A DNA stretch of 64,000 nt, taken from Mesostigma viride (Eukaryota > Streptophyta > Mesostigmatophyceae > Mesostigmatales > Mesostigmataceae). Below, piece after piece: positions 6,362-59,844 of the stretch. The stretch lies in the NCBI GenBank assembly GCA_009746045.1, contig RPFO01000176.1:234151-298150 (forward strand). The letters run 5' to 3'. Position 1 is the first letter of the stretch; every line of letters starts with the position of its first letter. Below the pieces are notes generated by a model. That model had not been told where the DNA came from. It searched no databases and saw only the letters and a list, made by a program, of their open reading frames with translations. Position numbers and translations under genes: made by a program.

Positions 6362-6433
6362 TGTCCTGGACAGGAACCAGCTGAGCGGCACCATGCCACC
6401 TGAGCTGGGGTCTTTGGTCTCCGTCCAATACTT
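6362..6433 (+). CDS. LRR exon 1: single 24-residue leucine-rich repeat
   Basis: The exon is 72 nt between acceptor 'cctgcccacag' and donor 'gtaagc'. It enters after codon base 2 and leaves after base 2 (phase 2-2), so it can be added or skipped without changing frame. It reads 'VLDRNQLSGTMPPELGS' then 'LVSVQY', a plant-type LRR (LxxLxLxxNxLSGxIPxxLGxL). It has no stop. The 90 bp upstream and 300 bp downstream are shared with other exons in the window; together with exons 4 and 5 it forms the subtype whose downstream block ends in 'gtgggtag'. LRRs of this class form ligand-binding solenoids in receptors. The partner or ligand is unknown, and expression is not shown. Confidence 0.8.
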
Positions 6434-7009
6434 GTAAGCCTCCTTGAGCATAATTTCCTCTTGTCAGCCCCATGCATCCACGCCAAGCATGCACGAGCAC
6501 AGACATCGCGACGAGCCGTGTGATACACTCTCGCGCTGCATGGGTGACCCAGTCAGTGGCTGAGGCAAAGGACATGGCGTACTGCGTGGCCCTCTGGCAT
6601 GTCACTTCAGTAACTTGTTGAGCGACCCAACGCATGTCTCGTTACACCCGTGAGCCATTGGCAAGCTTTGCTACTAATATCTGTCGCAATGTGACCTAGT
6701 CTAGAATTGCTTTGTGGCGTACTGTGGGTAGCCCTACTCACATTTTCCCCCGCGGGGTACCTTTGGTTGGGGTCCCAGTCAGGTAACTTTGTGCAATCTC
6801 AGATGTTGTATGGCAACGCAAGCTTTCTCGCAGCTGGGCTGCAGCTTGGGCAGCGTTCGGACCAGTCACGTAAATTTGCCAGAGGTCCCGCATTCAAATC
6901 CTTTTGTATTAGCACATCCCCTTGCAACTGTATAATATGTAGTAGACACAGTAGATGGTTTTTGCTATTGCCTAACAGTAAATTTTGCCAGGCTGTTGCC
7001 AAGGGTTCA

Positions 7010-7290
7010 GCATGGCATGCGCCGAGAGATGTGGCGTGGCATGGGCGTGCGTGCTGCATCGATGGTCTCGCATTTTTCCGTCCGCTGAGACCCTCTGGGC
7101 GACGCGAGGGTCTGGCGGCGCGTGTTGCTAGGCTTTGCAAGGACAGCCCCTTCTCCTTTGCCACGAGGCTGCCGCTCTGGGTAGCACTTAGGGTTGCTTA
7201 CATCTCTAGAGGTAGGATTCCCTATAAGTGGCTGAAGCTTAGGTCCATCAAAGTGCCTTCATGCCACACGAAACACAGGTATATTACAAT
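7010..7290 (+). repeat. Dispersed repeat shared with 55690-55960
   Basis: About 270 bp match 55690-55960 closely; a shorter core ('ggcgacgcgagggtctggcg' type) also recurs at 42420-42510 and 45250-45340. It contains 'ggcatgcgccgagagatgtg' and the inverted 'gagaccctctgggcgacgcgagggtct' hairpin-like core in part. No coding assignment. Confidence 0.6.
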
Positions 7291-7334
7291 GACTGTGTGC
7301 AAGCTTTCTGGTGGAGCCTAGCCACACCATAGCG

Positions 7335-7960
7335 CTACACGCATTAGGGCAGATTCGCCTCCGCCTGTAATTCTTTCCACCATAGCCGCTGGTCCTGGCC
7401 TGTATGGCTTCTTCCCCGACGTTGTCCGACTCCCAGTGTCAAGGAGCTGCTTGCCGCAGAGGGGAATCGTTGGTGGGCCCAGCGCCGGAAATCACACCCT
7501 TTTACTCAAATCCTAGAGCCCCCCAGCCACCAACCATTACCATGGCCAGTATTGGTTGGTGGCGAACATAAAGAATATTATACTAGGCCTCTCAACGCCC
7601 GGAAAGGCCAATAGCATCGTGTTACATTCAGCACAGCCGCCATAGCGGCCAGCCGACCTTGCCAGCAAATGCTGGGATCAAGTTAAGAAGCTGAACAGAG
7701 GCCTCCCTACGTCCCCTACACCACTCTAAGTACTGACTGCCCATCGCAGTTGCGCCTGCACGCCTGGCGGCTGGCGCAGGTACATGGTCTAGTGACGTTT
7801 GTTAGAAGCTACATAGACCTGCACTTTGGGATCACACTCAACGCCGGCACAAATGGCCAGCCGGTCCAGTACCCTCGTGACAAGCGCTAGTACTACGCTA
7901 ACTATGGCCTGTCGGTCCCGCCTAGCTATTTGAGCCCGTCTGCGTGTCACATGTAAAATG
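7335..7960 (+). mobile_element. Family E element, 3' part
   Basis: It aligns with the 3' half of the complete E copy at 49921-51489. Shared marks are the 'gaatcgttggtgggccc' region, the 'gctggcgcaggtac' block and the terminal 'aaaatgagcaaagctcaaca'. The 5' half is absent. Confidence 0.7.
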
Positions 7961-8010
7961 AGCAAAGCTCAACAATTACTTGTTGATAGGAGGCATGCAA
8001 TACTTTTGTT

Positions 8011-8400
8011 GTGCCCGCGCTAGTACCTACTGTCACACGTGCCCGCACTTTTGTGGTACTAGTAAGAGTGCCAAAGAGGGGGGTGCAGCACCTTGATGCC
8101 ATGTGATCTGTTATGCATGTCCACACGTACTTAGAGTGGTGTGGTGAATGTAGGGAGGCTTTTTTGCAGCTTCCAATCACCCACTCACTCTGCTGTTGAG
8201 GGACAAGGGCCCATGTGATGGGCCCCAGCGTGTTGAAATGGCCGTACTTGACAACGACCTGTACAATGATTTTGATGGTGTGCCTAGGCTCCCCATGTGC
8301 TGAATTTGGTTTCTTTATTTGCTTCCACTTTGCCATGCATTCATGATGGCCCAATCCAATACGTGAAGACTGCTGAATCTTGGCAATGAACAGGTGTAAC
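8011..8400 (-). mobile_element. E-related fragment, similar to 56296-56530
   Basis: The block 'gagtgccaaagag' followed by 'ttgatgccatgtgatctgtt' is shared with 56296-56530. The right side (8210-8400) resembles the reversed 5' end of family E ('gggccccagcg'). It has decayed too far to define ends. Confidence 0.45.
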
Positions 8401-8564
8401 ACTTCATATGTGTTATCCTAGTCGTGTCCCTTGTGGGATGTTGAGGTTGATTGCACTAAATGGGTTGTAATTGTTGGAGGTTTTGTAGATGAATTGTTGG
8501 AGTTCATGCTAGCCCAGTCCTTTGTTCCTGCTCACCCTGTCTTGCTGTCGATTCCTGCCCACAG

Positions 8565-8636
8565 TGACCTGGTTTCTAACCAGCTGAGCGGCACCCTCCC
8601 ACACGAGCTGGGTTCTTTGGTCTCCGTCCAATCCTT
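8565..8636 (+). CDS. LRR exon 2: single 24-residue leucine-rich repeat
   Basis: This is a 72-nt, phase 2-2 exon between 'tgcccacag' and 'gtaagc'. It reads 'DLVSNQLSGTLPHELGS' then 'LVSVQS'. It differs from exon 1 mainly at the residues around the conserved L-x-x-N (VS versus DR) and before the terminal L (S versus Y). These are the concave-face positions of an LRR. The downstream intron is the subtype that runs into an E-family element with a TGGG array; the same arrangement follows exons 6 and 7. Confidence 0.8.
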
Positions 8637-9130
8637 GTAAGCCTCCTTGAGCATTCCTCTTGTCAGCCCCGTGCATCCACGCCAAGCACACGCGAGCACA
8701 GATATCGTCAGAAGCCTTGTGATACACTCTCGTGCTGGATGAATGACCCACCGTGGCTGAGGCAAAGGATATGGCGTGCTGCGTAGCACTCTTGCATGTC
8801 AGTTCAGTAACTTGTTGAGCGACCCAACGCACGTCTCGCACCACCAGGCAGCCATTGTTGAGCTGTGCTACTGTTTTCTGTCGCAATGTGAGCTATCTAG
8901 GCTTGCATTGCTTTGTGGCGTACCATGGGAAATTCTGTGGATTATTAACTAGAGGCCATTAGAGTACCAAACCCTACCATGAGAAAGAAGTTTATTACAG
9001 TATTATTGTGCTAGGCTTTATAGTGGAGCCTTAGCCACACCATCAAACGCATTGTACAAATCATCATCAAGTTGCATTTGTTGCCATGCTGGGGCCCATA
9101 TACAACCTTGAGCTTTTCCTGCAGCAGCGA

Positions 9131-9769
9131 GGGTGGGTGGGTGGGTGGGTGGGTGGGTGGGTGGGTGGGTGGGTGGGTGGGTGGGTGGGTGGGTGGGTGG
9201 ATGGGTGGGTGGGTGGGTGGGTGGGTGGGTGGGTGGGTGGGTGGGTGGGTGGGTGGGTGGGTGGGTGGGTGGGTGGGTGGGTGGGTGGGTGGGTGGGTGG
9301 GTGGGTGGGTGGGTGGGTGGGTGGGTGGGTGGGTGGGTGGGTGGGTGGGTGGGTGGGTGGGTGGCTGGGTGGCTGGGTGGGCGGGTGGCTGGGTGGGTGG
9401 CTGGGTGGCTGGCTGGGTAGGTGGGTGGGTGGGTGGGTGGGTGGGTGGGTGGGTGGGTGGGTGGGTGGGTGGGTGGGTGGGTGGGTGGGTGGGTGGGTGG
9501 GTGGGTGGGTGGGTGGGTGGGTGGGTGGGTGGGTGGGTGGGTGGGTGGGTGGGTGGGCGGGTGGCTGGCTGGGTGGGTGGATGGATGGATGGATGGGTTG
9601 GTGGGTGGGTGGGTGGGTGGGTGGGTGGGTGGGTGGGTGGGTGGGTGGGTGGGTGGGTGGGTGGGTGGGTGGGTGGGTGGGTGGGTGGGTGGGTGGGTGG
9701 GTGGGTGGGTGGGTGGGTGGGTGGGTGGGTGGGTGGGTGGGTGGGTGGGTGGGTGGGTGGGTGGGTGGG
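9131..9769 (+). repeat. (TGGG)n tetranucleotide array, 639 bp
   Basis: The array is nearly pure TGGG with variant islands (GGCT, GGAT, GGGC) near 9361-9420 and 9555-9600. It is bounded by 'cctgcagcagcgagg' and 'gagctgcaaagaaaag', which also bound the arrays at 34982 and 43911 (43911 has 'ctgccgcagcga'). It begins 566 nt after the start of LRR exon 2. The + strand carries runs of three G and should form G-quadruplexes. The long frames through it (WVGG or THPP repeats) are artefacts of the 4-nt period. Confidence 0.98.
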
Positions 9770-10530: not shown

Positions 10531-10615
10531 TAGCCACCTGTGTGGTAGCATGGCCAAGTCTGTACAGGAAGCTTGTTCAACATTAAGAATTGTAAGAGCC
10601 CATCTATCTCTAATC

Positions 10616-12195
10616 GGTTTTCTCTGAATATAGTTTAATTAACGCATGCGGGAAAGATAGGGCCGCTATGCCTTGGCCTGGATGTGGAAGGCTGTCTGCG
10701 ACATGGGCTGACTAATTCGATCTGTACAAAGGGTTTCCTGTTCGCCCGAATTTTCCTTGGATGACCCGGTTGTTTATAAGGGTTGGTGGCTGTTAATTAG
10801 TGGTCCGAGAAAATTAATTGTAGGGTTTATACGACTTGCTTGCAAAGATTCGTGTTTGGTTGCACCAGCTGATCGAGGTTAGGTGGGGACCTGTAGGGTC
10901 GGCTGGTTGCTTAACGAATCTTTGGCTGATTTGGGTTCTTTGGTGAGTCGTGATTAATTATTGTATAGTGGATTCGGACCGGCCCAAGGGGTCGATGGGC
11001 GAGTTTTATGTTTGTCAGTCTTGGGAACCTTGTACAACTACCTGTACGGTTAACGCACTAGCCTGGGGGTGCGTGGCCACGTTGTTTGTAGTGGCGGTTT
11101 CAGCACTGTTCAGGCCGGCGTGTGACGCATGCCGGTGTTACTTAATTTAGGATGATGTCAGCTTGTGTGTCGGCGGGCCATGCCTTAAGCAAGCTAGGCA
11201 GGCAATGATCCGCAATTGTTTCTTTCACAATGGCGGCAATGGCCGCCTGTGCGAAATTGCACATTCTAGCGCGGGTTGCATCTGTCTTGTAGCCGAGGCA
11301 GATGGTGGCACAACCGCTAAGTTGTCCGACCAAGCATAGTATAGTTGGCCGTGCAACGGAAAGAAAATTTAAATTTACCCCCATGTCGTTTTTCCCCGGC
11401 TGCGGGTCTTTTTGACATGGGCGAAGGATGGGGCGCTACTTTGGCGGTTTGACCAGCTTCGTCGGAGCTGTTCATAAGTTTCTAAAACAGCTCTAGTGTC
11501 ACATCGCAGGCTTGCCACCTTGCGATGGTGCGTGGGACGTGACCTGGACTCATAAGGTCCTGAACCAGGTTCCTGTCAGCAACGGCCTGTTTTTTTCATA
11601 AATTATTTTTTTGTGGCGGCAGGTGGGTTGTCCAGCTGCCCTTGCCGAGGAGGGGTAGTTGGGGACAATAGGAGCCGCGCGAGAGTTGCGATCCGAAGCT
11701 AGAAGTTTCCCTATTGCGAGACTCGAGTTGGGGAGGGCGTCTTAGGGAGGGAGGCCAGGCTACGCCAGACCTTTGTCGTTCCTTTTTTCATCTCAGCACC
11801 TGCTGCGCGGCTCAATCAATTATGGTGTCGTAAAACCTCTTTCATTTTTTGATAATTCCGGAATTGCGAAATGCCGGCTCTTTTGGGGGGCTTGCTTTTG
11901 GGGTGGTCACCGGCTTGTGTCGCATTGTAACCAGCGGGCCCCTGCGGGGGTTAATTTAGCCTAGCGCGGGCTGGGTCGCCATTTAAGATGTTGCGACACG
12001 CTCTTTCGCGCACGGTGGTCATGAGTTTAATCGGCGCAATGGGGTTGGCGCCAGGGGGGGGTAATTGGGTGGAGGCTTCTTGCTTCCGCGTGCGGATTGA
12101 GAAACCTTAGGCCACTGTTAACTGCTGCATTTGTGGCAGGGCTCCACTTATTGTATCTAATCAAATGCTGGTCTTCTTGGGAGCTCAGTGATCTT
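10616..12195 (+). mobile_element. Family A, copy 2 (full length, 1580 bp)
   Basis: It starts 'GGTTTTCTCTGAATATAG' at 10616 after AATC (10612-10615). It ends at 12195 and is followed by AATC (12196-12199), then at once by copy 3. It is the best intact copy with copy 4. It holds a 66-codon + frame (10950-11150) with one hydrophobic stretch ('CVATLFVVAVSALF'), also open in copies 3 and 4. No transposase is present. Confidence 0.88.
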
Positions 12196-12199
12196 AATC

Positions 12200-12942
12200 G
12201 GTTTTCTCTGAATAGAGTTTAATTAACGCATGCGGGAAAGATACGCCTTGGCCTGCATGTGGAAGGCTGTCTGCGACATGGGCTGACTAATTTGATCTGT
12301 ACAAAGGGTTTCCTGTTCGCCCGAATTTTCCTTGGATGACCCGGTTGTTTATAAGGGTTGGTGGCTATTAATTAGTGGTCCGAGAAAATTAATTGTAGGG
12401 TTTATACGACTTGCTTGCAAAGATTCGTGTTTGGTTGCACCAGTGATCGAGGTTAGGTGGGGACCTGTAGGGTCGGCTGGTTGCTTAACGAATCTTTGGC
12501 TGATTTGGGTTCTTTGGTGAGTCGTGATTAATTATTGTATAGTGGATTCGGACCGGCCCAAGGGGTCGATGGGCGAGTTTTATGTTTGTCAGTCTTGGGA
12601 ACCTTGTACAACTACCTGTACGGTTAACGCACTAGCCTGGGGGTGCGTGGCCACGTTGTTTGTCGTGGCGGTTTCAGCACTGTTCAGGCCGGCGTGTGAC
12701 GCATGCCGGTGTTACTTAATTTAGGATGATGTCAGCTTGTGTGTCGGCGGGCCATGCCTTAAGCAAGCTAGGCAGGCAATGATCCACAATTGTTTCTTTC
12801 CCCTCCCTCCCACCCTGGAGGCTTCTTGCTTCCGCGTGCGGATTGAGAAACCTTAAGGCCACTGTTAACTGCTGCATTTGTGGCAGGGCTCCACTTATTG
12901 TATTCAATCAAATGCTGGTCTTCTTGGGAGCTCAGTGATCTT
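12200..12942 (+). mobile_element. Family A, copy 3 (internally deleted)
   Basis: It sits in tandem with copy 2, sharing AATC. It keeps the first 600 bp and the last 130 bp. The middle is replaced at about 12800 by a short C-rich link ('cccctccctcccacc'), much as in B copy 2. The right flank is AATG. Confidence 0.85.
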
Positions 12943-13469
12943 AATGTGATGTTGACCGCTACGGTACACGCATCTTGGTTTTAGAAAGAACCTGCGAAAG
13001 TTATGCTTCTTGCTAGTAACCTCCGTGGGTTTAGGGTGTGGAAACCTGCCCAAGCGGCCCGGTGCGTGGCGGGGCTACTCGCATTGGTGTGGCTGTGCAA
13101 GACTACACCGCACAACCCCATGGGTTGGGCCAGCTGGCGCCCGGTTCAGGTTGCAAGTGCTGGCTCCGGGTTTCGACCGCCGACAGGGAAGTCGAGGCCA
13201 ACCTGAGGCGGCGCCAGTTGTTGGTGGGGACCAATATTCCGCGCTCCACCCTGCCCCGACGTGGTGCGCGGTGGTGGTGTTCCTGGACTGCCCCCCCCCC
13301 ACCGGGGCCTCACGGCCCAGCAGCGGCAAAACACTTGTTTTGCAAGTGGGTCTCGGCCGTGGACGAGAGCGGGAGGGGGCGGAGCCAAACTCGTCCTCAG
13401 CAGAGAAAGCAGGGTCTTAGTAGACTTCACCAATCTTTCATGGTCTGCATGTGCCAGTGAAGGCCAACC

Positions 13470-17280: not shown

Positions 17281-17352
17281 GAATCTCGATGAGAATCCGT
17301 TGAGCGGCACCCTCCCAACCGAGCTGAGCTCTTTGTCACACCTGCAAAGGCT
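17281..17352 (+). CDS. LRR exon 3: single 24-residue repeat, divergent type
   Basis: This 72-nt phase 2-2 exon lies between 'cctgtccacag' and donor 'gtacgt'. It reads 'NLDENPLSGTLPTELSS' then 'LSHLQR'. It has the same length and phase as the others, but its scaffold (S-H-L instead of V-S-V) and both flanking introns differ. It is thus an older exon outside the recently copied set. It shows that one-repeat-per-exon organisation predates the cassette expansion. No stop is present, and the conserved Asn and Leu positions are kept. Confidence 0.75.
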
Positions 17353-18345: not shown

Positions 18346-18442
18346 GATAACCCATGCCTTGTTGCCACTTGCGCCGTCACATTGAATGCCTTGTTGCCAC
18401 TTGCGCTGTGAATTCGAATGCCTTGCTGCTTCCTGCCCACAG

Positions 18443-18514
18443 TAGCCTGGACCAGAGCCAGCTGAGCGGCACCATCCCACACGAGCTGGGGTCTTTGGTC
18501 TCCATGCAATACTT
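18443..18514 (+). CDS. LRR exon 4: single 24-residue leucine-rich repeat
   Basis: This 72-nt phase 2-2 exon lies between 'tgcccacag' and 'gtaagc'. It reads 'SLDQSQLSGTIPHELGS' then 'LVSMQY'. The conserved Asn of LxxN is Ser, which may weaken the Asn ladder of the solenoid, but the frame is open. Upstream (18340-18442) and downstream (18515-18800) introns match those of exons 1 and 5. Confidence 0.78.
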
Positions 18515-19079
18515 GTAAGCCTCCTTGAGCATTGCTCTTGTCAGCCCCGTGCATCCACGCCAAGCACACGCAAGCACAGATATCGTGAGAAGCCTTGTGA
18601 TACACTCTCGTGCTGCATGGGTGACCCACAGCGGCTGAGGCGAAGGACATGGCGTACTGCGTGGCACTCTTGCATGTCAGTTGAGAAACTTAGTTCGCGA
18701 CCCAGCATGTCTCGTTACACCCGTGAGCCATTGGCAAGCTGTGCTACTGTTTTCCGTCGAAATGTGACCTAGGCTAGAATTGCGTTGTGGCGTACCGTGG
18801 GTAGTCCTCATGTCTGCCCCCTATGGTACGTTCGGTTGGGGCTCCAAATTGTTTTTTCGACCAGTTTTATGGCATTGCAGAAAGCTTTCTCCCAGTTTCG
18901 CTGCAGCTTGGGCAACCTTTGGATCAGAATAACCTTACTAGACTAGACTCATCTTCTACTGTTCCCCTCCCACTTATGCTCACGTGACGCAGTCACGTGT
19001 CTATTAATTAATTAATTAATTCATACTAGACTCATCTTCAGTAGAGCTACTGTACTAGATGGGTCCCCAGCTCATTTCC

Positions 19080-21326: not shown

Positions 21327-21329
21327 ACC

Positions 21330-25637: not shown

Positions 25638-26806
25638 CTAGGCACCTAAAGTACGCAAAGTAATTTGCGAAACGCGGTAACTTCGGCACCGTGTAACTGC
25701 TATACTGCACTATCTTCAGTGCTATAAATAATTCCGGAAAGCTGACCGCAAGCCGTAGCTCGGCTGTTTTTTCATTTGCCATAAATATAGCAGGCGGGTG
25801 CGATTATCGATGTCGCAACCCTGACATCTCCTTTTGCGACGTGATGGCCAAGTAAGAAAGACGTAAAAGGTCAGTTGGGCACACAGGGTAAAATTTACCC
25901 TTGACACGGGTAACCACCCTAGGTGGACCACGGTCTCACAATGAAACCCAATCGCCTTGATTCCAGGCGCCAATCCCAGCTTCACAACTGCAACCATCAT
26001 GGTGGTGCACCCGGGCTGTTCGGCTGGTTCATCAAACGAAGACAACCATGAGCGTGGCAAGTGAAGAACTTAACGAACAAGGACCTGCATGGCCAAGGCA
26101 CGGTCCTTTTTAGCTATGTCCTAATGTGCTGATGACGCAAGCAAAGTCCCTAGGCCTGTCAAACCTGGTTACATGCGCCGAACTATGTGCGCATTTCCCA
26201 GCAATACAGCAAAGCATATCCGCTGCTAATCCTACCTGCTTGTAACAACACATGTCATGCCTTGGCTCGCTCATGCTATAAGCGCATCAATCAAATATGT
26301 GCTGCTGCAGCAGCAGCAGCAGTACGATAACTACGACACACCATCAGGAACATGATTGACTGCGCCAAATGCCTACCCTAGAGTGGACGACCAATAAGAG
26401 TGTACGACCAACAAATTATTCCAGCCGCCAGCGCGGTACTTGGGCCCTTGCATACATACGGCACAGCGCGACCACGCTGGCGGACTCCAGCATGTGCCTG
26501 GTGCCGCAAGACCAAAAGTTGTCATTGCAAATATTTTCTTCACTCTCACAGTACACGCAAAAGTGGGAGCACACTGCGTGGGTGGGGACATAAATATTCG
26601 GGCGGGTTACGAATGGGTTTCACAGTTCATATGCACGATGATCGTTTGCCTTGCAGGATGTAAATCTTAACCCCTTAAGGTTAATAGCCATAATTGGGTA
26701 CTAACTGTTGGAGGTATTGCCTGTTTCTGGATCAAGTTGATGTTAACCCATACCTTTGTTGCCACTCACGCTGTCACATGGAATGCCTTGAGTTTCCTGC
26801 CCACAG

Positions 26807-26878
26807 TCTCCTGGCTCATAACCAGCTGAGCGGCACCATCCCACATGAGCTGGGGTCTTTGGTCTCCGTCCGAATGTT
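26807..26878 (+). CDS. LRR exon 5: single 24-residue leucine-rich repeat
   Basis: This 72-nt phase 2-2 exon lies between 'tgcccacag' and 'gtaagc'. It reads 'LLAHNQLSGTIPHELGS' then 'LVSVRM'. Variable positions relative to exon 1 are L for V, AH for DR, and RM for QY; the scaffold is unchanged. Downstream (26879-27175) is the same intron block as after exons 1 and 4, with 'gtgggtagccctactcac'. Confidence 0.8.
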
Positions 26879-34412: not shown

Positions 34413-34487
34413 TGCCCTGATGACCATTGCCCAGCTGAGCGGCACCATCCCACATGAGCTGGGGTCTTTGGTCTCCGTCCGAGCGCT
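34413..34487 (+). CDS. LRR exon 6: single repeat with one extra codon (75 nt)
   Basis: This phase 2-2 exon lies between 'atctgtccgcag' and 'gtaagc'. It is 75 nt long because one codon is added in the variable stretch. It reads 'ALMTIAQLSGTIPHELGS' then 'LVSVRA'. The conserved Asn of LxxN is lost (T-I-A), so this repeat may be distorted. The frame stays open and exon removal would still be frame-neutral. The downstream block and E/TGGG element (array starts 569 nt after the exon start) match exon 2. Confidence 0.72.
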
Positions 34488-38579: not shown

Positions 38580-38582
38580 CTG

Positions 38583-39656: not shown

Positions 39657-39739
39657 TCACTTCTAAAGCATAGAACGGTAGTAGGTGAATCAGAAATCTA
39701 AGATTCGATGAATAGCGGCTACAACCGCCACCACCCGCT

Positions 39740-39975: not shown

Positions 39976-40021
39976 TTCGAAGCAGGAGGAACGCGCCTGT
40001 GGCCCAGGAGGGTCCCCCAGC

Positions 40022-42665
40022 TCAAGTCCTAGTAGCACGCCATTCGACAATTTAGTAGTGTACAACGGCACATGGTTTGGGGGCGTGCCTAACATCAGCA
40101 CGTTGCCAAACGGGGACGCGGGCAACAGGGAGTACAACTCGAGGGAAGAGGCTGGCAGGGAATAATGCCCTCCCCCCCCATCATTACCCTGAGTCTAAAC
40201 TTAGTACAGTGAAACTTGGCCTCCACACCTGTCAGTATGACCTTACCTTTGTCGTCTCATACGCCATCCTTGGCACCAGGGCTTATTCCAGGTCAACCGT
40301 ATTATTTCTTAGATGGAATTGTCTCGAGCACTATAAGAAGAATCGGTTTTCTCTGAATATAGTTTAATTAATTAACGCATGCGGGAAAGATAGGGCCGCT
40401 ATGCCTTGGCCTGCATGTGGAAGGCTGTCTGCGACATGGGCTGACTGATTCGATCTGTACAAAGGGTTTCATGTTCGCCTGAATTTTCCTTCGATGACCC
40501 GGTTGTTTTTAAGGGTCGGTGGCTATTAATTAATGGTCCGAGAAAATTAATTGTAGGTTTTATACGGCTTGATTGCAAAGATTCGTATTTGGTTGCACCA
40601 GCTGAGATTATCTGGGGACCTGTAGGGTCGGTTGGTTGCTTAACGAAACTTTGGCTGATTTGGTTTCGTTAGTGAGTCGTCATTAATTATTGTATAGTGG
40701 ATTCGGACCGGCCCAAGGGGTTGATGGGCGAGTTTTATGTTTGTCAGTCTTGGGAACCTTGTACAACTACCTGTACGGTTAACGCACTAGCCTGGGGGTG
40801 CGTGGCCACGTTGTTTGTAGTGGCGTTTTCAGCACTGTTGAGGCCGGCGTGTGAGGCATGCCGGTGTTACTTAATTTAGGATGATGTCAGCTTGTGTGTC
40901 GGCGGACCATGCCATAAGCAAGCTAGGCTGGCAATGATCCGCAATTGTTTCTTTCACAATGGTGGCAATGGCCGCCTGTGCAAAATTGCACATTCTAGCG
41001 CGGGTTGCATCTGTCTTGTAGCCGAGGCAGATGGTGGCACAACCGCTAAGCTGTTCGACCAAGCATAGTAAAGTAGGTCGTGCAACGGAAAGAAAATTTA
41101 AATTTACCCCCATGTCGTTTTCCCCGGCTGCGGGTCTTTTTGACAGAGGCGAAGGATGGGGCGCTACTTCGGCGGTTTGACCAGCTTCGTCGGAGCTGTT
41201 CATAAGTTTCTAAACCAGCTGTAGTGTCACATCGCAGGCTTGCCACCTTGCGATGGTGCGTGGGGGGTGACCTGGACTCTAAAGGTCACGAACCAGGTTC
41301 CTGTCAGCGACGGCCTTTTTTATATAAATTTTTTTTGTGGCGGCAGGTCCGCTGTCCAGTTGCCCCTGCCGAGGAGGGTTAGTTGGGGACAATAGGAGCC
41401 GTGCGAGGGTTGCGCTCCGAAGCAAAAATTTATTCCCTATTGCGAGACTCGAGTCAGGGAGGGCGTCTTAGGGAGGCGAGGCAACGCCAGACCTTTGTCG
41501 TTCTTTTTCGTCTCAGCACCTGCTGCACGGCTCAGTCTATTATGGTGTCATAAAACCTCTCTCCTTTTTGGACGATTCCGGAATTGCGAAATGCTGGCAC
41601 TTTTGGGGGGCTTGTTTTTGGGGTGGTCACCGACTTGTGTCGCATTGAACCAGCAGGCCCCTGCGGGGGTTAATGTAGCCTAGCGCGGGCTGAGTCGCCA
41701 TTTAAGATGTTGCGACACGCTCTTTCGCGCACGGTGGTCATGAGATTAATCGGCGCAATGGGGTTGGCGCCAGGGGGGGGTAATTGGGTGGAGGCTTCTT
41801 GCTTCCGCGTGAGGATTGAGAAACCTTAAGGCCACTGTTAACTGCTGCATTTGTGGCAGGGCTCCACTTATTGTATTCAATCAAATGCTGGTCTTCTTGG
41901 GAGCTTAGTGATCTTAATCATCTTTATCTTTCTGCATTGTCACCATCTCTGCAGTCCAAGAAAACGGTATATGGCTTTTGGTCGTGCCTAACAGTAGCAC
42001 TTTGCCAAACGGGGACATGGACAAACTCGAGGGAAGAGGCCGGCAGGGAACAATGCCCTCACACCCTCGTAATTACCCTGAGTCTGAACTGAGGGCGGTG
42101 TCCACGATGCCTACGCCTGGTGGCCGCGAGGTGGCATGGCCCAGCAGCACAAGTATAAAGGTCAGGGCATCGGTGGGCTGCGCTCTAGTGGGCATGCTAG
42201 GGCTAGAGTTCCAGCGGCATCCAGGTCCTTTGGCAAATCTGGGGCATCCATCATGGCTATCAGGCACCATGATGGCGCGCCACACCTCCGCCACAAACCG
42301 CTCTTCCGCTTGGCGTGAACAGAATGGACCGATGTGGTGCAGTTCAGTTCTCAACAGCAACGTGGCACTCCGCTATTAGATCCGAAGTGTGCCCGAGGGT
42401 TCAGTGGCACTGCCGCTTAAGATGTGGCATGACATGGGGCATGTGGGCTGTGTCGATGGTCTCGCATTGGTGCGGCCACTGAGGCCCTTCGGGCGATGCG
42501 AGGGTCTGGCGTCCCAGCACATGGAGTTGTATAATCAAGACAGGGGATTATCGACCGTGAAAGTGTTTAAAATTTTATCTGCATATTCTAGTCGTCCCTG
42601 TGAGATTTTTCCCTGAGAGATTAACGCTTCAGGGTAGTTACAATAGGTGGGTAGTAACTGTTGGA
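40022..42665 (+). repeat. Segmental duplication of 44417-45490, filled by element A
   Basis: 40022-40344 and 41916-42665 together match 44417-45490 continuously, except that element A (40345-41915) sits between them. Both copies lead into an LRR exon (exon 7 here, exon 8 there), so the exon was copied with about 1.1 kb of upstream sequence. Confidence 0.85.
40345..41915 (+). mobile_element. Family A, copy 4 (full length, 1571 bp)
   Basis: The paralogous empty site at about 44729 defines this insertion: 'aagaagAATC' then 'acctttctctttctgc' without the element, versus AATC on both sides here (40341-40344 and 41916-41919). This gives a 4-bp duplication, or an element ending in AATC without duplication. 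Both A frames (66-codon + and 110-codon -) are open. Confidence 0.92.
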
Positions 42666-43249: not shown

Positions 43250-43332
43250 AGAATGTAAATGGTTAGAACTGATGTCACCCATTGCTTCTTACCGCTCGCG
43301 TCGTCAATCTATGCCTTGGTATCTGCCCACAG

Positions 43333-43404
43333 TGATCTGCGCAGTAACCAGCTGAGCGGCACCATCCCTCCAGAGCTGGGGTCTTTAAATTCCGCGGAAG
43401 ACTT
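43333..43404 (+). CDS. LRR exon 7: single 24-residue leucine-rich repeat
   Basis: This 72-nt phase 2-2 exon lies between 'atctgcccacag' and 'gtaagc'. It reads 'DLRSNQLSGTIPPELGS' then 'LNSAED'. The last third (N-S-A-E-D) is unlike all other copies and lacks the usual hydrophobic residue, so the repeat may be altered, though it is still open. Intron blocks on both sides match exons 2 and 6, followed by an E/TGGG element starting 578 nt after the exon start. Confidence 0.75.
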
Positions 43405-43910
43405 GTAAGCCTCCATGAGCATTCCTCTTGTCTCCCCCGTGCATCTGCCCCATGCACACGCGAGCACAGATATCGTGAGAAGCCTTGTGATACACTCTCG
43501 TGCTGCATGGGTGACCCACAGTGGATGAGGCAAAGGACATGGCGTACTGCGTGGCACTCTTGCATGTTAGTTGAGTAACTTGTTGAGCGACCCAACGCAT
43601 GTCTCGCACCACCAGGCAGCCATTGTTGAGCTGTGCTGACATCATATGTTGCAATGTAACCTAAAAGGCTTGAACTGCTTTGTGGCGTACCATGGGAAAT
43701 GCTGTGGGTTATTAGCCGTGGGCCGTTGGAGTACCAAACCCTACCATGAGAAACAGTTTTATTACAATATTTGCTGGTTAGGCTTTATAGTGGAGCCTTA
43801 GCCACACCATCAAACTCATCATACAAGTCATCATCAACTTGGCTTTGTCACCATGCTGGGGCCCAGCATTTGTCCCATAATACAACCTTGAACTTTCCCT
43901 GCCGCAGCGA

Positions 43911-44312
<402 letters not shown>

Positions 44313-45490: not shown

Positions 45491-45583
45491 GGAGGCATTG
45501 TGAATTGTTAGACCTGATATCAACCCAGTCCTTGTCACCGCTCGCGTTGTCATTCTAAATGCCTTACTGCTTCCTGCGCACAG

Positions 45584-45654
45584 TGGCCTGGCCTATAACA
45601 AGTTGAGGGCACCATCCCACCCGAGCTGGGGTCTTTGGTTTCCGTCCGTTACCT
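45584..45654 (+). pseudogene. LRR exon 8: frameshifted (71 nt)
   Basis: It has acceptor 'cctgcgcacag' and donor 'gtaagc' like the others. One base is missing in the S-G codons ('ttgagggcacc' instead of ttgagcggcacc), giving 71 nt. Up to that point it reads 'GLAYNK', as in exon 9. Inclusion would shift the frame of any LRR transcript, so it must be skipped or is a dead cassette. The downstream intron block is truncated at about 45720. Confidence 0.8.
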
Positions 45655-45964
45655 GTAAGCCTCCTTGAGTGTTGCTCTTGTCAGCCCCTTGCATGTATGC
45701 CAAGCACACACGAGCAGAGATATCACGAAAAACCTCCTTTGGTATGCTGTACTCTGCGGATGCTCTTGTCGGCAGCTGGAGGCCTGCATGAGCTGGTGGC
45801 ATTAAGTGGCTTGTGTACCATAGTCATCACTTGGCAAGATGTAATCTGCGGATGCTCCTGTCGGCATGCAGCTGGAGGCCTGCATGAGCTGGCATTAAGT
45901 GGGGTGTATACCGTACGTCTGTAGTGTCGACCATGTATGAATATCAGGCCTCAGCTGGCAGGCT

Positions 45965-49158: not shown

Positions 49159-49916
49159 TTTCTTGTCTTTGGTCCGTTGGAGTTCCTTCCCACCAAGAGA
49201 AACATTTATACGGACAGCCTATACGGACAGCTTTATACGGACAGCCTATACCACACCTTCAAACTCAGTGCACATCATTATCAAGTTGGTTATTGTAGCA
49301 CCATGCTGGGGGCCCAGCACACTCGAACACAAGGTGTTGCACCTCTTAGCAGCGTGGGTGGGTGGGTGGGTGGGTGGGTGGGTGGGCGGGTGGGTGGGCG
49401 GGTGGGTGGGTGGGTGGGCGGGTGGGTGGGTGGGTGGGTGGGTGGGTGGGTGGGTGGGTGGGTGGGTGGGTGGGTGGGTGGGTGGGTGGGTGGGTGGGTG
49501 AGTGGGTGGGTGGGTGGGTGGGTGGGTGGGTGGGTGGGTGGGTGGGTGGGTGGGTGGGTGGGTGGGTGGGTGGGTGGGAGCTGAAAAGAGGCCTCCCTAC
49601 GTCCCTTACACCACTCTAAGTACTGACTATCATTCACATTGCGCCACGCAGGCCTGCCGGCTGGCGCAGGTACAAGGTGTACTGACTGCCCATCACAGTT
49701 GCGCCACGCCTGGCGGCTGGCGCAGGTACAAGGTCTAGTGAGGTACGTTAGAAGCTACCTAGGCCTGCACTCCGGAATCACACTCAGCCTCGGCACAAAA
49801 AGGGCCGGCCGGTGCAGTACCCTCGTGACAAGCGCTAGTCTTACGCTACCTACGGCAGGTCGGTCCCCTTTGAGCCCATCCACGCGTCATATATAAAATG
49901 AGCAAAGGTCAACAAA
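49159..49916 (+). mobile_element. Family E with a TGGG array in place of the interior
   Basis: The first 190 bp and last 340 bp match the full E copy that follows at 49921. The roughly 1.1-kb interior is replaced by the (TGGG)n array at 49355-49578. This shows how the array-bearing elements at 9, 35 and 44 kb derive from family E. Confidence 0.85.
49355..49578 (+). repeat. (TGGG)n array, 224 bp
   Basis: TGGG repeats with several GGGC variants in the first 70 bp and one GAG change near 49500. The left border differs from the other three arrays ('acctcttagcagcg'). The right border is 'gagctgaaaagaggcc'. Confidence 0.98.
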
Positions 49917-49920
49917 CAGA

Positions 49921-51489: not shown

Positions 51490-51802
51490 TAGATTTCTTG
51501 TTTTTGGTCCATTGGAGTTCCTTCCCACCAAGAGAAATCGGTTTTCTCTGAATATAGTTAACTGTTCCAATATAGACTGGTGACCTGCCTGTGAATGGAC
51601 AGGTGTAACAGTTTCTCTGCATTCTCCTAGCCATTTTCCTTTTGGGATATAACGCTTGACCCTTGAGCTTGATTGTGACAAATGGGTATTAACCGTACAT
51701 GGGTACAACGGTGGCGGTATTGTCAATTGTTGGAGTTGATGTTAGTCCACTCCTTATTGCCACTCGCGCTGTCACATTGAATGCATTGCTATCTGCCCAC
51801 AG

Positions 51803-51874
51803 TTTCCTGGCCTATAACAAGCTGAGCGGCACCATACCACCCAAGCTGGGATCTTTGGTCTCCTTGCAACAATT
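51803..51874 (+). CDS. LRR exon 9: single 24-residue leucine-rich repeat
   Basis: This 72-nt phase 2-2 exon lies between 'atctgcccacag' and 'gtaagc'. It reads 'FLAYNKLSGTIPPKLGS' then 'LVSLQQ'. It shares 'LAYNK' with exon 8, so these two are closest relatives. Differences from the other copies again sit in the concave-face positions, plus E to K in the P-P-K-L turn. The downstream block (51875-52155) ends at a family F repeat. Confidence 0.8.
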
Positions 51875-52162
51875 GTAAGCTTCCTTGAGCATTCATCTTG
51901 TCAGCCCCTTGCATTTATGCCAAGCATGTGCGAGCACAGATATCGCGATGAGCCTTGTGATACACTCTCGTGCTGCATGGGTGACCCACAGTGGCTGAGG
52001 CAAAGGACATGGCGTACTGCGTAGCACTCTTGCATGTCAGTTGAGAAACTTAGTTCGCGACCCAGCATGTCTCGTTACACAGGTCAGCTGTTGGCAAGCT
52101 GCGCTACTAGTATCTGTCGCAATGTGACCTGGGCTTGAATTGCTTTGTGGCATAATTGGTGA

Positions 52163-52429: not shown

Positions 52430-53590
52430 ATGACCACGGTGACTGCCCCAGCGAGGAATTTTATTCAGAAGCTAAGAACAGGCTGCCAAACCAGGATGCG
52501 CGCCGAAGGTGACTGCCATGGCAGTTCGGGCAATCATGGGGGCAGACCATTGGCTAGACAGGGTCAAGCTACTCAACCTGGTTTGGGCCAAGAATGTTTG
52601 GACGTCGTTGGAGGCACATGGCCTTAACATCGACTGGGATGGAGATGAGGATCTGGCCGGCGTGATTGCAGAACAGCTGGGGGAGGCCTTTGCCAAGGCG
52701 GATCCTCCACCTGCGCCAGATGGGGTGCTGACGGGGGGTGTTCCCCTTCCGGCGGGCGGGAGCGGAGGGGGCCAGGCGAGGTGGGAATGACGATGGGGAG
52801 GAGGATGGCGTCCGGGGCCGTGTGAACCCAGCTGTAGCAGGCCTCAAGCAGGACATGGCCTGGTTGATGAGAACCACAACGGGCTATGCGACCCCGGTGG
52901 GCGGACTGTCATCCAGGCACGGGCCCCCTTGGCGGAGATAGAGGGAAGTTGCTGGCTGCCATGGCCAAATTGCTGGAACAGGCAAAGGCTGCGCCGGCAG
53001 CGAGCCCAGCGCCGTCGGCGAGTGCCGGGAGGCTAGGGTGCACGAGGGGGGTGGCGCTGAGCGGGAACGCGGTGTCATACCTGCTGAGCAACGTTCTGGA
53101 CGTAGTACTGCCGGGGATGTTGGACTACACAGAGAGCGTGGGAGAGAAGTCCATCCACGCGCCGACCATTGCGATCTGCCCACGCGGGCGGGGGAGGAGG
53201 TCTTTGAGGGTGTATCTAACTTGAATTCCTACCACAACAGGCTCCGCCTGCCTACTTCAATGCGGCGGTACTGTGCATGGATGTCGGTGTGGCTGGACCT
53301 TGTGGGTCTGAGTCAGCCGCGTCGGAAGGTGTGGCCGTGGATATTGTGCTGACCGATGGGGAACCGCCGTCGCGGTGGCCCAGTGTGTGCACCAGTTTGT
53401 GCTGTACCGCTGTGGCCCCAAGCCCCCCGCTGAAGGCTAGTCGGGGCCTGAGCATCGACATGTCAGCATTGATTTTGGTGGCGGATGCTGGCGAGGCGGG
53501 GCAGACTGTCAGGCTTCGGCTGGAGGAGGATCCTGCTGCACCACTGGCGCCTTCGCCTGCTTCAAATCTCGGCAGGATCTGGAGGGTATG
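52430..53590 (+). pseudogene. Probable structural (gag-like) region of a DIRS-like element
   Basis: The region lies upstream of RT, RNase H and recombinase remains on the same strand and is coding-like: GC-rich, with overlapping frames of 60-112 codons (52509-52787; 52886-53224; 53277-53600). 'LLNLVWAKNVWTSLEAHG' and 'NAVSYLLSNVLDVVLPGM' look like globular segments, but I recognise no family. Assignment to gag is from position only. Frame changes show it is broken. Confidence 0.4.
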
Positions 53591-53848
53591 CATGTCGTGA
53601 CGATCGATTACCTCCATTTCACCCACTGTGCGTCGGTGGATGGGGTGAATCAGCAGCTAGATCGTGTTCAGGCTGCCTACGCCGCCATGGGGCTGGTGCA
53701 AAAGTCTGACAAGGTGGTACGGGCGACAGCTGAACAGACTGGTGTGCAGGCGGTAGGTGTCATTCACCAACGGGATGGTGATGTGGTGCCTGTTCCTGAG
53801 CGGGTGGTGGCGGTTGTCGCCGGTATTCATCGAATCTTAGATCGCTGA
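53588..53848 (+). pseudogene. DIRS-like reverse transcriptase, C-terminal part
   Basis: An 86-codon frame. 'VTIDYLHFTHCASVDG' stands where Y-x-D-D-x-L is expected, but only one Asp remains. The helix 'VNQQLDRVQAAYAAM', the 'GLVQKSDKVV' motif with the conserved Lys, and 'TGVQAVGVIHQRDGD' then 'VVPVPERVVAVVAGI' follow the order of the RT palm end and thumb. The palm's first half is missing. Nearly identical to 39740-39975 reversed. Confidence 0.65.
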
Positions 53849-53878
53849 TTCACCTACCGTTCTGTGCTTTAGAAGTGA

Positions 53879-54590
53879 GTGTGGATGCATCTGCTTTGCC
53901 GCCCCATGCTCTCGGTGTGGTCTGAGACATATCGGCTGCTAGCAGTCATGAACGCCTCCCTGCCAGGGCGCCGCTGGCGGCTCCTTGCGGGGGCCCGCCA
54001 GGAGCTGCAGGCGGGGATCGACCCTGGACCCTTTTTTATAGCTGTCCGGACCCGGCCCCTTTCTGACCGGGTCGTGGCTAGTGATGCAGCTCCGATGGTG
54101 GGGTGGTCTACAGAGACCTGCCTGGGGCCGACTGCGCCCGTCTGGCAGCCCTGCATGAGGCGCGGGGGTGGTGCACGACAGAGTTTTAAAGCCTCTGGGG
54201 AGGACTGGATCTAGAGCGCATGGAGGAGGGGGACCACAGCCTGCTGGGAAGTGGCCACTGGCGTACGGCACTGTCCTAGAGGTGGCGGGGGCAGCCAAAC
54301 CACGTCAACGTCAAGGAGGCGATTGCTGCGATGCAAGGGGTCGACTGGTCGTGCCGCACCAAGGTGCGTTGGGAAAAGTGCGTCGTCGGGCTGGACTCCA
54401 GCACGGTAGTGGGGGCGTTTGTCAGAGGGCAGTCCTCGTCATACCGCCTCAACCATGGTTCTGCAGATGGTTCAACGCTACTGCGCCCTGTCACTGACTG
54501 CTGACATGCACAGCCACTGGGTGTGGGTCGCTACTGCCCACAACCCTGCTGACCAGGCCAGCCGCGCGGCGCCTGGGTCCCCGGTTTGAC
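53879..54590 (+). pseudogene. DIRS-like RNase H domain
   Basis: A linker 'LLCRPMLSVWSETYRLLAV' is followed by 'RVVASDAAPMVGWSTE' (first Asp), 'HVNVKEAIAAMQGVDWS' (Glu), 'VVGLDSSTVVGAFVRG' (Asp), 'SSSYRLNH' and, after another shift, 'WVWVATAHNPADQASR'. The signature residues are present, but the frame is broken at least twice. One extra T at about 54434 relative to the 39-kb copy changes the frame after 'FVRGQ'. Confidence 0.7.
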
Positions 54591-54654
54591 CAGGTGCGGT
54601 GACGTGCACCCCAAGCTTGGGGGGGGGGGGGGGCGCCCGCGGGGTTTTGCACTT

Positions 54655-55515
54655 TTGGAGGGCACTGTCAACCATGTTTCTACCTTGCCAGCCTACTGGC
54701 GTGCGGCAGCTGCCTACGTGGCATGGGTGCCACCTGGCCCTGTCGACCCAGCTCACGCGGAAGCCATTTTCTGTGAGTGGATTTCTGCTGTCTACCATGC
54801 CAGAGGTGGGCAGGGGCGTACCTTATGCCAGCACACCAAGGCCTTACACCGCAGGCTCGCGGGGTGGCACCGGCTCGTTCCGGCTGTCAGCCCTCCCCCT
54901 ATGCCCTTGCGCCTTTGCTATTTCACTGCCCTGTTGCTAATTTCATGTTAGCAGGTGCATTTTAGTGCGTTGATTATTATTGCTTTCCAGCAGTATTTAC
55001 GCATGGCGAGTTGCTCGGGCTGCGGGTTAGGGATGTGGCTCATCCTGGCCACCCCTTTCCCGAGCCAGGGCCCACTTTCGGTGTCCTTGTGCTGCGCAAC
55101 CCCAAGACTGCGCTGGGGGGTGGCCCAGCACGTCCTCGTCCGGGATCCACTTTCTTTGTGGCTCCTGCGACGCCTGACGGCTGGCCAGCCCCCGGATGCA
55201 CTTCTTTTTCGTGGCTTGACGTACAGCCAGGCTAGGCAGCAGTGGGAGGCAGTGCAGGCCCACATGGGCATCCTGGGGATGTCATTATCTTTCCACGGCC
55301 TCCGGCATGGGGGGCGACGCACGACGCCATCGCTGGCGAGTCGCCGGAGGCCATTCAGCTGCACGGACAGTGGGCTTCGGCCCTCTCGGTCACGCGCTAC
55401 ATTGGCCTCGACCACAGCCTCCTGGGGGCGGGACATCCCGCCGGCACTCTGGGCCTAGTCCGGAGTATTGCCACTGCCGAGTTCCGGCGCCACTTCGTTG
55501 GCGTCGTGTTTTGAC
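54655..55515 (+). pseudogene. DIRS-like tyrosine recombinase
   Basis: A core-binding segment 'LPAYWRAAAAYVAWVPPG' (from about 54690) is followed after a stop by 'FQQYLR' with Arg I (near 55000), 'ELLGLRVRDV' one frame over, 'VAQHVLVRDPLSLWLLRR', 'LTYSQARQQWEAVQ', 'FHGLRHGG' and 'ATHDAIAGESPEAIQ' with 'VTRYIG'. The frame breaks after 'RHGG' because the G run at about 55309-55314 has six bases against seven at 38 kb. The break after Arg I is shared with the 38-kb copy. All four catalytic residue types are visible but not in one frame. Confidence 0.72.
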
Positions 55516-55689
55516 GTCTTCTTTTTCTCTCGTCTCTTATCTATCAACTGACCTCACCCCTGTTGGGGAGTTCAGGGGGGAAATGGTTTTACTAACCCTA
55601 TGGGCGAATCTGGGTTGGGGCAGAGTACCCCCATAGCAGATGGTTTCTGATATTGCCTAGCCAATTAAAATATTGCCAGGCTATTGGCA

Positions 55690-57594: not shown

Positions 57595-57689
57595 TAGATT
57601 CTACTCTAGACTCTATTCCATATAAAATCGTCTTTTTATACTGCAAAGCTCGACTTGGCTGCGGCGATTAAAGGTGCTCATGTTACCAT

Positions 57690-58270
57690 TGCGATGGCGA
57701 GCATTCGGACACTGGGAGGTCAGAGCCATCGTCATCATCACAATGGGGGTTGGAGCTACATAGGGGCAGTGGCTCTGCTCCCGGGGAATCCCAGCCAGGG
57801 GCGTTTGCTGGTGGGGCTGGTGATGGCGGTTGGGTGAGCTGTAGATGTACCCAGATGACAAAAAGTCCTAAATTGGCAGCCCTGGGATGCCCCCCTTTAA
57901 TCAGGGGAAAGAATGTGGCTCCGCCCTGCGTCCGCCAGGGAACCGTAGCGGCCACATGGGGTCGGAAGTGGCGGCATCATCACGCCAAAGCAGGCCCGAC
58001 ATTCCAAGTGGTTGTGTTCCTACCGCCAGGCCTAGCGGGGCTGGTAACGGCCTGGGTGGCCAGGGATGGAGATGTGGGACAAGCTTGGACCAAGGGGGCA
58101 TCTGCTGGGCCCCAGCGTGGCGAAATGGCTAAAGTTGACAATTACTTGTACAGCGATTATGATGGTGTTGGTAGGCTCTACTATGAAGCCTGCATACACT
58201 CATTATAGTAAAATTGTTTCTCAGGAAGGCATTCCAAGGGACCTTAGCTTCAGCCACCTATTTTCATGAG
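57690..58270 (-). mobile_element. Family E-related divergent copy
   Basis: It follows the layout of 33487-33935: 'ggggctggtgatggc', 'ctgcgtccgccagggaacc', 'gtagcggccaca', then the 'gggccccagcgtgg' end. It is divergent, and its outer borders are not defined. Confidence 0.55.
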
Positions 58271-58279
58271 CTGTATGGT

Positions 58280-59570
58280 ATTATCATTCTGCGGCGGGCT
58301 CAAAGGGGAGGGCAGCCGGCCTACAATATTTAAGTTATGACTTAGAGCTGGCGGCTGTCCCAGCCGCCTGCGGCGGTCTGTCTCGTACCATTATACTAAG
58401 AAATATGAAACATTTTTAAACACAAATCTAAGTGGCAATGCACTTTCAGGCAGCTCCCATTGGCACAGATAATGTGAGCATAGCTCAACATCTGCATTCT
58501 TGCTTTTATTTCTCCTGTTGGGAATTGCTGGTGAATTAAATCTTAAACCAAATAGATTGAACCATTGGCATATCTCTGACTGCATTCTTTTCTGTCTGCC
58601 TGACTTTAAAGAATTTCATCGTGATGTTTGTCAAAGCATCTGGAGAAGCTGGGTCCATCGTTGTCGAGAACTTTGTATTATTGCTACTAAGACTGTACCC
58701 CACTCTGTGCTCCCCAAAGATTTGATACTCTGAGGGCAATATGGTAGCAACTATGAAAGTGTTAGACCATATGCACCATATACATGAAAGCGTGAGACCA
58801 GTAAACATACTCTCTCGTATAGCAGTTTGCCTGCGATTGTGGCAGTTATGTATCTACATAGTGCGCAGCCATCACTGGAATATCCAGAAGAAATGATCAA
58901 GGTTGCACAAACTAGATTTGGTAGCACCATCATCAGTAGCTCTTGGCTGCAGGGGGTACTGAGCATGCTTAAGCAAAGTGACACACCAAAACTGGGTATG
59001 CACCCACCATTGACATGTGAGTTCAGGCCATTGAAACATGTTACTCTTTGGCAACGCCCAGAAGGGCGTGCAAGCAACTCGCTGCGATGTTTTGTGTGTA
59101 GCTTAAAGGATACCCGGTTCCGGTTGCTTAGAAGTAATGTCTCTGGCTGTCCAGTCATGTATGGGAGCAATCAGAGAATATGTGCCCTCGTCAACTGGTG
59201 CAACGAATGCGTTCTTGTATGTAGCCACCATGTCATGTAGCAACACGTCACGTAGCACTGCTGGTACGTGCGTGGATCCAAACGCTCAACCAGCAAGCAT
59301 GGTAGGGAGGACAGTCTGCTGCCCCGACAAGCCAGTGGCAGCGTGCCACAAGGCATTACTGCTCCATGGGATGCAGTTGCTGATGACGACTTTGCTACCT
59401 TGTCATGATGATTGTCCGCCAATTTGGAAATAGCTGGCTGTATGCTTCAACTTTAACTAGAAAGTAAGGAAATACGTTCGAGCATCACCGGTGTGCTGAC
59501 ATGCTGGTAGTTGCACGCAGCCAGAAGAAATGATGCACAGGGCATTTGTTGCACTATCTGGTTTGACGTA
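58280..59570. other. Unassigned region with open frames on both strands
   Basis: Largely unique-looking, AT-richer sequence. The + frame at 58827-59240 (137 codons) and the reverse frame at 58751-59170 (139 codons) overlap, and neither has a recognised domain. A reversed family C fragment lies at 58310-58400 ('ggcggtctgtctcgtacc'). Possible host intron or an unrecognised gene. Confidence 0.3.
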
Positions 59571-59590
59571 GAATCTTTCGGTGCTTGTAT

Positions 59591-59734
59591 GTTTACAACT
59601 AGGAGGTCGCTACAAACCCTGCATGTGTTTACAAATAGGAGGTCGCTACAAACCCTGCGTGTGTTTACAACTAGGAGGTCGCTACAAACCCTGCATGTGT
59701 TTACAACTAGGAGGTCGCTACAAAACCTGCATGT
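59591..59734 (+). repeat. 36-bp tandem repeat, four copies
   Basis: Units start at 59591, 59627, 59663 and 59699, exactly 36 bp apart: 'gtttacaactaggaggtcgc' then 'tacaaaccctgcatgt'. The period is a multiple of three, so the + frame (59581-59787) reads 'CLQLGGRYKPCM' four times. It ends 38 bp before LRR exon 10, in the position of its upstream intron. Confidence 0.95.
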
Positions 59735-59772
59735 GTATACTTGCGATTTGCATACTGGCCCTCGTCGCACAG

Positions 59773-59844
59773 GTTACTAAACGATAACAACCTGCGTGGC
59801 ACTATTCCATCAGAGCTGGGATCGCTGCAAACACTTAAAGCTAT
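59773..59844 (+). CDS. LRR exon 10: single 24-residue repeat, divergent type
   Basis: This 72-nt phase 2-2 exon lies between 'cctcgtcgcacag' and consensus donor 'gtaagt'. It reads 'LLNDNNLRGTIPSELGS' then 'LQTLKA'. It matches plant-type LRR consensus better than the cassette copies do (L-Q-T-L-K). Its flanking introns are unrelated to theirs, so like exon 3 it is probably part of the ancestral gene. The final split codon joins the next exon in the phase used by the 62.1-kb exon. Confidence 0.78.

Follow-up and report, generated by a model that had tools for sequence, protein, structure and literature searches.

The question raised by the locus described here is what kind of gene is built from scattered exons that each code for one leucine-rich repeat (LRR), and by what means their variation came to be focused on one face of the protein. 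The exons lie in a window of 64,000 nt (C269:234151-298150), which is the terminal part of a 298,150-bp contig, C269, of an assembly totalling 439.9 Mb. An earlier note on this window had described an array of ten forward-strand LRR exons, eight of them exactly 72 nt long and all of phase 2-2, with variation focused on the predicted binding face. The locus looks like a receptor family caught shuffling its binding surfaces. It probably holds three tandem genes for secreted LRR receptors, whose diversity would have arisen in the germline through unequal crossing-over, gene conversion over short tracts, and selection.

A profile was built from the ten window exons and run on both strands of the window. 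It returned exactly these ten, with no eleventh on either strand. Each is a + strand exon bordered by an upstream AG and a downstream GT, and the reading of one LRR per exon is supported. Exons are named here by their first position in the window. Eight are indeed 72 nt long, one is 75 nt and one 71 nt. Phase 2-2 is kept in nine of the ten, the exception being the frameshifted exon 45584; since this exon is broken, the ten cannot all join in one frame. Eight of the ten are copies of one cassette; exons 17281 and 59773 lack the cassette introns and stand outside the family. The array of ten holds for the window, and the whole array is larger. Scanning the last 228 kb of the contig with the profile (C269:70001-298150, window included; E 0.001) gave 42 LRR-exon matches, every one on the + strand, comprising 3 first exons, 35 cassettes, 3 last-LRR exons and 1 other LRR exon (17281). 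The order of first exon, cassettes and last LRR exon occurs three times, with 13, 12 and 10 cassettes in genes 1, 2 and 3, respectively. Most of gene 3 falls inside the window.

The first exon of gene 3 starts upstream of the window, at C269:224393. Read by eye, the first exons of genes 2 and 3 contain an ATG, a hydrophobic start and a partial LRR in frame (MPLCLLA...CSKQFSGTLPPQLGDL), and they encode a putative, signal-peptide-like leader. The last LRR is followed by a conserved cysteine-containing exon with DVSFNPQICGPNPP...VCP, and the C-terminus of gene 3 lies beyond the contig end. A search of solved structures gave a near-gapless match to plant LRR ectodomains; FLS2 and GSO1 were the best matches, a Leptospira LRR protein was fourth and ERL2 fifth. 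Pfam scans covered 243 of the 321 listed open reading frames (ORFs) of the window, on both strands, plus nine ORFs. No receptor, kinase or ROC/COR domain was found in the 243 window ORFs, although short exons could escape such a scan and the gene extends past the contig end; the single LRR exons themselves also fell below the Pfam threshold. Nine other Pfam families matched one ORF each (E 0.0027-0.046), as did PRR22 at 0.053, and these were taken as chance.

The concave set of codons was defined as codons 1, 3, 4, 22 and 23 of the 72-nt exon. Six clean window cassettes were compared, as was a larger set of 32 distinct cassettes (33 exons) from C269, from which the 71-nt exon, the 75-nt exon, exon 17281 and six terminal exons were omitted. 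Mean pairwise diversity in the six window cassettes was 0.56 at the concave codons and 0.13 at the others, which bears out the proposed focus on the predicted binding face. Among 33,649 five-codon sets ordered by diversity, the concave set ranks 12 with the six cassettes and 3 with the 32. Diversity in the larger set falls in the order of codons 4, 3, 23, 1, 13, 21 and 22; codons 13 and 21, outside the concave set, are also fairly variable (0.44 and 0.39). The variable residues are the x of xxLxLxx, and the match to plant LRR ectodomains puts them on the concave strand. In those ectodomains the concave strand faces the ligand. The most diverse codons (4, 3, 23 and 1) are thus predicted ligand-face positions.

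The earlier note had named an even spread of substitutions, at the rate of the flanking introns, as the result that would tell against it, and no such spread was found. The proportion of differing sites in the six window cassettes was 0.639 at codons 1, 3, 4 and 23, 0.129 in the rest of the exon, 0.139 in the downstream intron and 0.243 in the upstream 55 nt. When intron sites were drawn at random 100,000 times, 0.639 was never reached. Similarity outside the four codons is thus close to that of the downstream intron, and it is the four codons that are accelerated. Across the 32 cassettes, the nonsynonymous (dN) and synonymous (dS) rates were 1.22 and 0.54 at the concave codons, and 0.106 and 0.195 at the others. 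Downstream intron divergence in this set had a mean of 0.30 over 290 nt and 0.175 in the first third, above that of the window's six.

Every intron interrupts the first Leu of xxLxLxx; therefore, one predicted ligand-facing strand consists of x22 and x23 of one exon and x1, x3 and x4 of the next. The 32 combinations are built from 28 different 5' variable blocks and 20 different 3' variable blocks, some 3' blocks occurring with up to four 5' blocks. The association of the 5' with the 3' blocks is weak (Mantel r 0.10, p 0.08), and codon 1 is associated with codons 3-4 (r 0.17, p 0.009). Exon distances of the C269 cassettes hardly track intron distances. Concave distance was 0.53 in 17 pairs at an intron distance of 0.05-0.10 and 0.59-0.60 in 435 pairs at 0.10-0.5, with rest-of-exon distance at 0.11-0.15 across all bins; 42 of the 496 pairs, with an intron distance >0.5, were left unbinned. 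A second array (C1524:402-422 kb), in which 10 of 13 profile matches are readable as 72-nt exons in the same register (DLSSNxLSGTIPPELGS), shows a weaker pattern, with concave and scaffold diversity of 0.39 vs 0.18 as against 0.55 vs 0.12 in the C269 cassettes. Its codons 3 and 4 have low diversity (0.13 and 0.19 vs 0.61 and 0.68 on C269), and its codons 22 and 23 (0.60 and 0.68) equal or exceed those of the C269 cassettes.

The exon shuffling proposed earlier gains support from a comparison of C269 with contig C435, of which 38 kb plus 3.7 kb were read, the list of blocks being limited to at least 97.5% identity and at least 500 nt. The matching blocks are 0.7-12 kb long and 97.7-99.5% identical, with 99.4% in the two longest. 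The order of the blocks on C435 differs: gene 2 cassettes (one twice) are followed by the junction of genes 2 and 3, near 179.6 kb, and by gene 3 cassettes (one twice); a 2-kb C435 stretch between them has 96.3% identity to its best C269 match. The junctions between the two contigs fall at or near cassette sequence. Of the 11 cassettes on these 38 kb, ten each match a C269 cassette exactly. The eleventh, at 168.2 kb of C435, occupies the place of exon 51803 within a 12.2-kb block, where 22 of the 42 mismatches are packed in 295 bp at one exon. Fourteen of these 22 are at the exon, and 8 more form a second patch. A 72-nt piece at this C435 exon, of which 5 nt are intronic and 67 nt exonic, shares 98.6% identity with the distant cassette C269:226831; in the 100-nt pieces that follow, the identity is 98-100% with the C269 place corresponding to the exon itself. 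Such a pattern is what short gene conversion would leave. Thus, two contigs of one assembly differ by apparent steps of shuffling, namely fusion, duplication and exon-sized conversion. Ongoing point hypermutation was considered and is not favoured, as ten of 11 C435 exons have an exact counterpart on C269 and the remaining one looks like block exchange.

As read in the sequence, the genes consist of a signal-peptide-like first exon with a partial LRR, a run of 24-aa cassettes, one per 72-nt phase-2 exon, a conserved last LRR exon and a proposed cysteine-containing cap exon, and the product of such a gene would be secreted. If C435 is sound, unequal crossing-over within the conserved core would add and remove cassettes, and short gene conversion would copy pieces of exon size from one cassette to another. 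The rates given above support selection for new residues of the concave face. By analogy, the protein may bind variable ligands of microbes or other non-self, and its repertoire would be mainly of germline origin, differing from haplotype to haplotype and from one generation to the next. Since the intron lies within the ligand-facing strand, recombination, or any alternative splicing, makes a new strand at each junction.

Several observations weigh against this explanation. Concave dS is also raised (0.54), beyond what selection alone predicts; exchange of older blocks could account for it. Two cassette pairs with an intron distance <0.05 have a concave distance of 0.29, below the rest. No donor was found for the second mismatch patch of the converted stretch, and over 330 nt the best match of the converted C435 exon is its own C269 place (91.2%). 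Instead of the other haplotype, C435 may represent a paralogue of recent origin or, in part, a faulty assembly. Some copies may be decaying, as the first exon of gene 1 is frameshifted and exon 45584 is broken on both contigs. The reverse strand of C435:152501-156200, which matches the end of C269 and runs past it, carries a repeat whose unit, judged by eye, is about 63 nt long, with all three frames open. One frame is cysteine-rich and reads ICVGGKACAGTCCIVAEAP, without a Pfam or solved-structure match as a cysteine-rich tail; the repeat could be non-coding. The ligand and the role in immunity are argued by analogy.

In the VLR of jawless vertebrates and in arthropod Dscam, constant ends enclose interchangeable variable modules; VLR arises by somatic assembly and Dscam by alternative splicing. 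The present locus resembles both by analogy of working, and, unlike for VLR, somatic assembly is not needed for it. Dscam-like combinatorial alternative splicing as the main source of diversity, each new junction making a new ligand-facing strand, is possible, if on balance unlikely. The 33 intact C269 cassettes have one length and one phase, and all 35 keep AG and the donor GTAAGC, but phase and donor would be kept under constitutive splicing too. A broken exon inside the array must be skipped for the frame to stay open, and alternative splicing has been reported for the 72-bp LRR exons of brown algae (PMC11378527). A germline LRR system that combines the shuffling of symmetric one-repeat exons between haplotypes with a combinatorial choice among them by splicing is rather unlikely; its 35 cassettes could give a very large repertoire without somatic rearrangement.

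It is rather unlikely that the genes serve recognition of self type, mating or cell adhesion instead of defence against pathogens, with a concave face diversified through the need for allelic distinctness. The same gene order and rates apply to this alternative, and two closely similar contigs with different exon content fit a highly polymorphic recognition locus; the nature of the ligand is not distinguished by this evidence. A decaying or non-functional array, with exon copies carried in repeat-rich DNA and variable through lack of constraint, is very unlikely. The broken exon 45584, the frameshifted first exon of gene 1 and the many interspersed repeats around the cassettes are in its favour, but scaffold dN is lower than dS, splice sites are intact in all 35 cassettes, indels are fewer in the exons (2 of 35) than in intron stretches of 72 nt (9 of 35), and the concave codons are several-fold above the intron divergence. 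A mobile cassette spread by transposition is hardly credible, for although a core of about 0.4 kb is common to the copies and their surroundings differ, all 42 C269 matches lie on one strand in one order, and junctions between contigs fall at or near cassette sequence.

Among known systems, exon-shuffled LRR genes with selected concave faces have already been found in brown algae, on which Zambounis et al. reportedly published LRR-ROCO work in 2012. In the brown-algal ROCO genes (PMC11378527), each 72-bp exon codes for one LRR, the exons are shuffled and alternatively spliced, and four concave sites are under positive selection. The same source gives these sites as 14, 16, 18 and 19, a spacing equal to that of 23, 1, 3 and 4 here. 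Unlike in the present locus, where an intron cuts the strand, nt 3-71 of the brown-algal exon code for a 23-aa repeat with the variable strand inside one exon, and a ROC-COR follows, to which the scanned window ORFs show no match. The assembly studied here also has a green-type rbcL, with contamination being possible. The brown-algal comparison of the earlier note therefore stands as an analogy, and membership in the brown-algal ROCO family was dropped on exon register and green-type rbcL.

The comparison with ERECTA-type kinases proved apt. Plant LRR receptor kinases of the ERECTA and FLS2 type share the 24-aa repeat LxGxIPxELGxL, and in rice LRR-kinases (PMC3050792) the exons are 72 nt long and of phase 2, the intron usually splitting the first Leu of xxLxLxx, which is the register found here. 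The differences are that no kinase was found in the scanned window ORFs and that the present cassettes are nearly alike, vary in number from contig to contig and are spaced up to kilobases apart. Four sequenced green algae are reported to have yielded no LRR receptor-like kinase genes (PMC5296948). Tetrahymena also has uniform LRR exons with phase-2 introns, shuffled by ectopic recombination, yet they are 90 bp long vs 72 here, and the word concave is absent from the text of PMC6564038. In the present locus, a pattern like the brown-algal one occurs with the land-plant LRR-kinase exon register in an assembly with a green-type rbcL; no report of this locus was found in the limited library searched. 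If the explanation by tandem secreted receptors is true, the question whether organisms other than land plants and animals have diversified repertoires of receptors would become directly testable, and the locus would bear on the origin of the plant-type LRR exon structure.

The host marker rbcL occurs at five full-length places in the assembly. The one that was read is of the green type, with 1gk8, presumably from Chlamydomonas, as the best solved match. A green alga is thus the probable host, barring contamination as the source of the plastid contigs or a secondary origin of the plastid. On C602 (205,291 bp), rbcL lies twice in opposite orientation, as if in a plastid inverted repeat; further full-length places are on C996 and C900.

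Table 1. Exons, cassette cores and tetranucleotide arrays of the LRR locus (window positions unless C269 is given)
Feature	Position	Strand	Evidence or remark
LRR cassette exon, 72 nt, phase 2-2 (VLDRNQLSGTMPPELGSLVSVQY)	6362..6433	+	borders, profile
LRR cassette exon, 72 nt (DLVSNQLSGTLPHELGSLVSVQS)	8565..8636	+	borders, profile
LRR exon outside cassette family, 72 nt (NLDENPLSGTLPTELSSLSHLQR), donor GTACGT	17281..17352	+	profile; omitted from cassette counts
LRR cassette exon, 72 nt (SLDQSQLSGTIPHELGSLVSMQY)	18443..18514	+	borders, profile
LRR cassette exon, 72 nt (LLAHNQLSGTIPHELGSLVSVRM)	26807..26878	+	borders, profile
LRR cassette exon, 75 nt (longer by one codon, frame kept; N of xLxxN missing)	34413..34487	+	alignment
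LRR cassette exon, 72 nt (DLRSNQLSGTIPPELGSLNSAED)	43333..43404	+	two identical copies on C435
LRR cassette exon, 71 nt (1-nt deletion, frameshift)	45584..45654	+	same broken form on C435
LRR cassette exon, 72 nt (FLAYNKLSGTIPPKLGSLVSLQQ)	51803..51874	+	5' variable part of C435 counterpart resembles C269:226831
Conserved last LRR exon of gene 3, 72 nt	59773..59844	+	resembles C269:155755 (gene 1) and 203759 (gene 2)
Proposed C-terminal cap exon, 107 nt, phase 2 in / 1 out (DVSFNPQICGPNPPVPESDPQPPTVTRLATLEVCP)	62103..62209	+	kept in three genes; borders by eye
First-exon matches	C269 79042, 162292, 224479	+	profile scan
Last-LRR exons	C269 155755, 203759, 293918 (= window 59773)	+	profile scan
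Cassette core, ~-60 to +290 around exon	6300..6728	+	self-BLAST, alignment
Further cores	~8538-8929, 18389-18801, 26738-27167, 34352-34779, 43277-43696, 51742-52154		self-BLAST
Shorter core copy around exon 45584	45523-45735		self-BLAST
(GGGT)n array, ~0.5 kb downstream of exon 8565	9131..9769	not assigned	
GGGT array after exon 34413	34982-35277		
Mostly TGGC array after exon 43333	43914-44311		
Further long tetranucleotide array	49354-49578		

Elsewhere in the assembly, a pattern search gave 235 forward and 81 reverse places, the control with the pattern reversed giving 19 and 13, and further clusters were found on C1, C435, C1106 and C1524 among the matches listed. Relatives were absent from viral_contigs, by protein or by pattern search. 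On C269, eight cassettes at 187.6-192.3 kb are spaced by 631-648 bp in six of seven steps, i.e., they form tandem units of about 640 bp.

Cassettes 8565, 34413 and 43333 have in common a longer downstream part bearing a tetranucleotide array (GGGT or TGGC). The long tetranucleotide arrays of the window (GGGT, TGGC and GTGG), three of which lie about 0.5 kb past LRR cassettes, are possible recombination-prone sequence. About 500 bp of upstream sequence is common to 34413 and 18443 (78%), and exon 34413 may be a mosaic, a reading weakened by the fact that this upstream sequence recurs elsewhere as a repeat. The window had no Rfam match at the gathering score and no tRNA. The top Pfam match in its ORFs was a tyrosine recombinase (PF00589), below the cut-off, in a repeat at 37896-38582. 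This repeat, which we take to be DIRS-like, is present in two inverted copies (37895-40018 and 53525-55637) with 97% identity. Another dispersed repeat, of about 1.5-2 kb, occurs in direct orientation at 546-2605, 10612-12945 and 40340-41918, being 87-97% identical in the aligned pieces.

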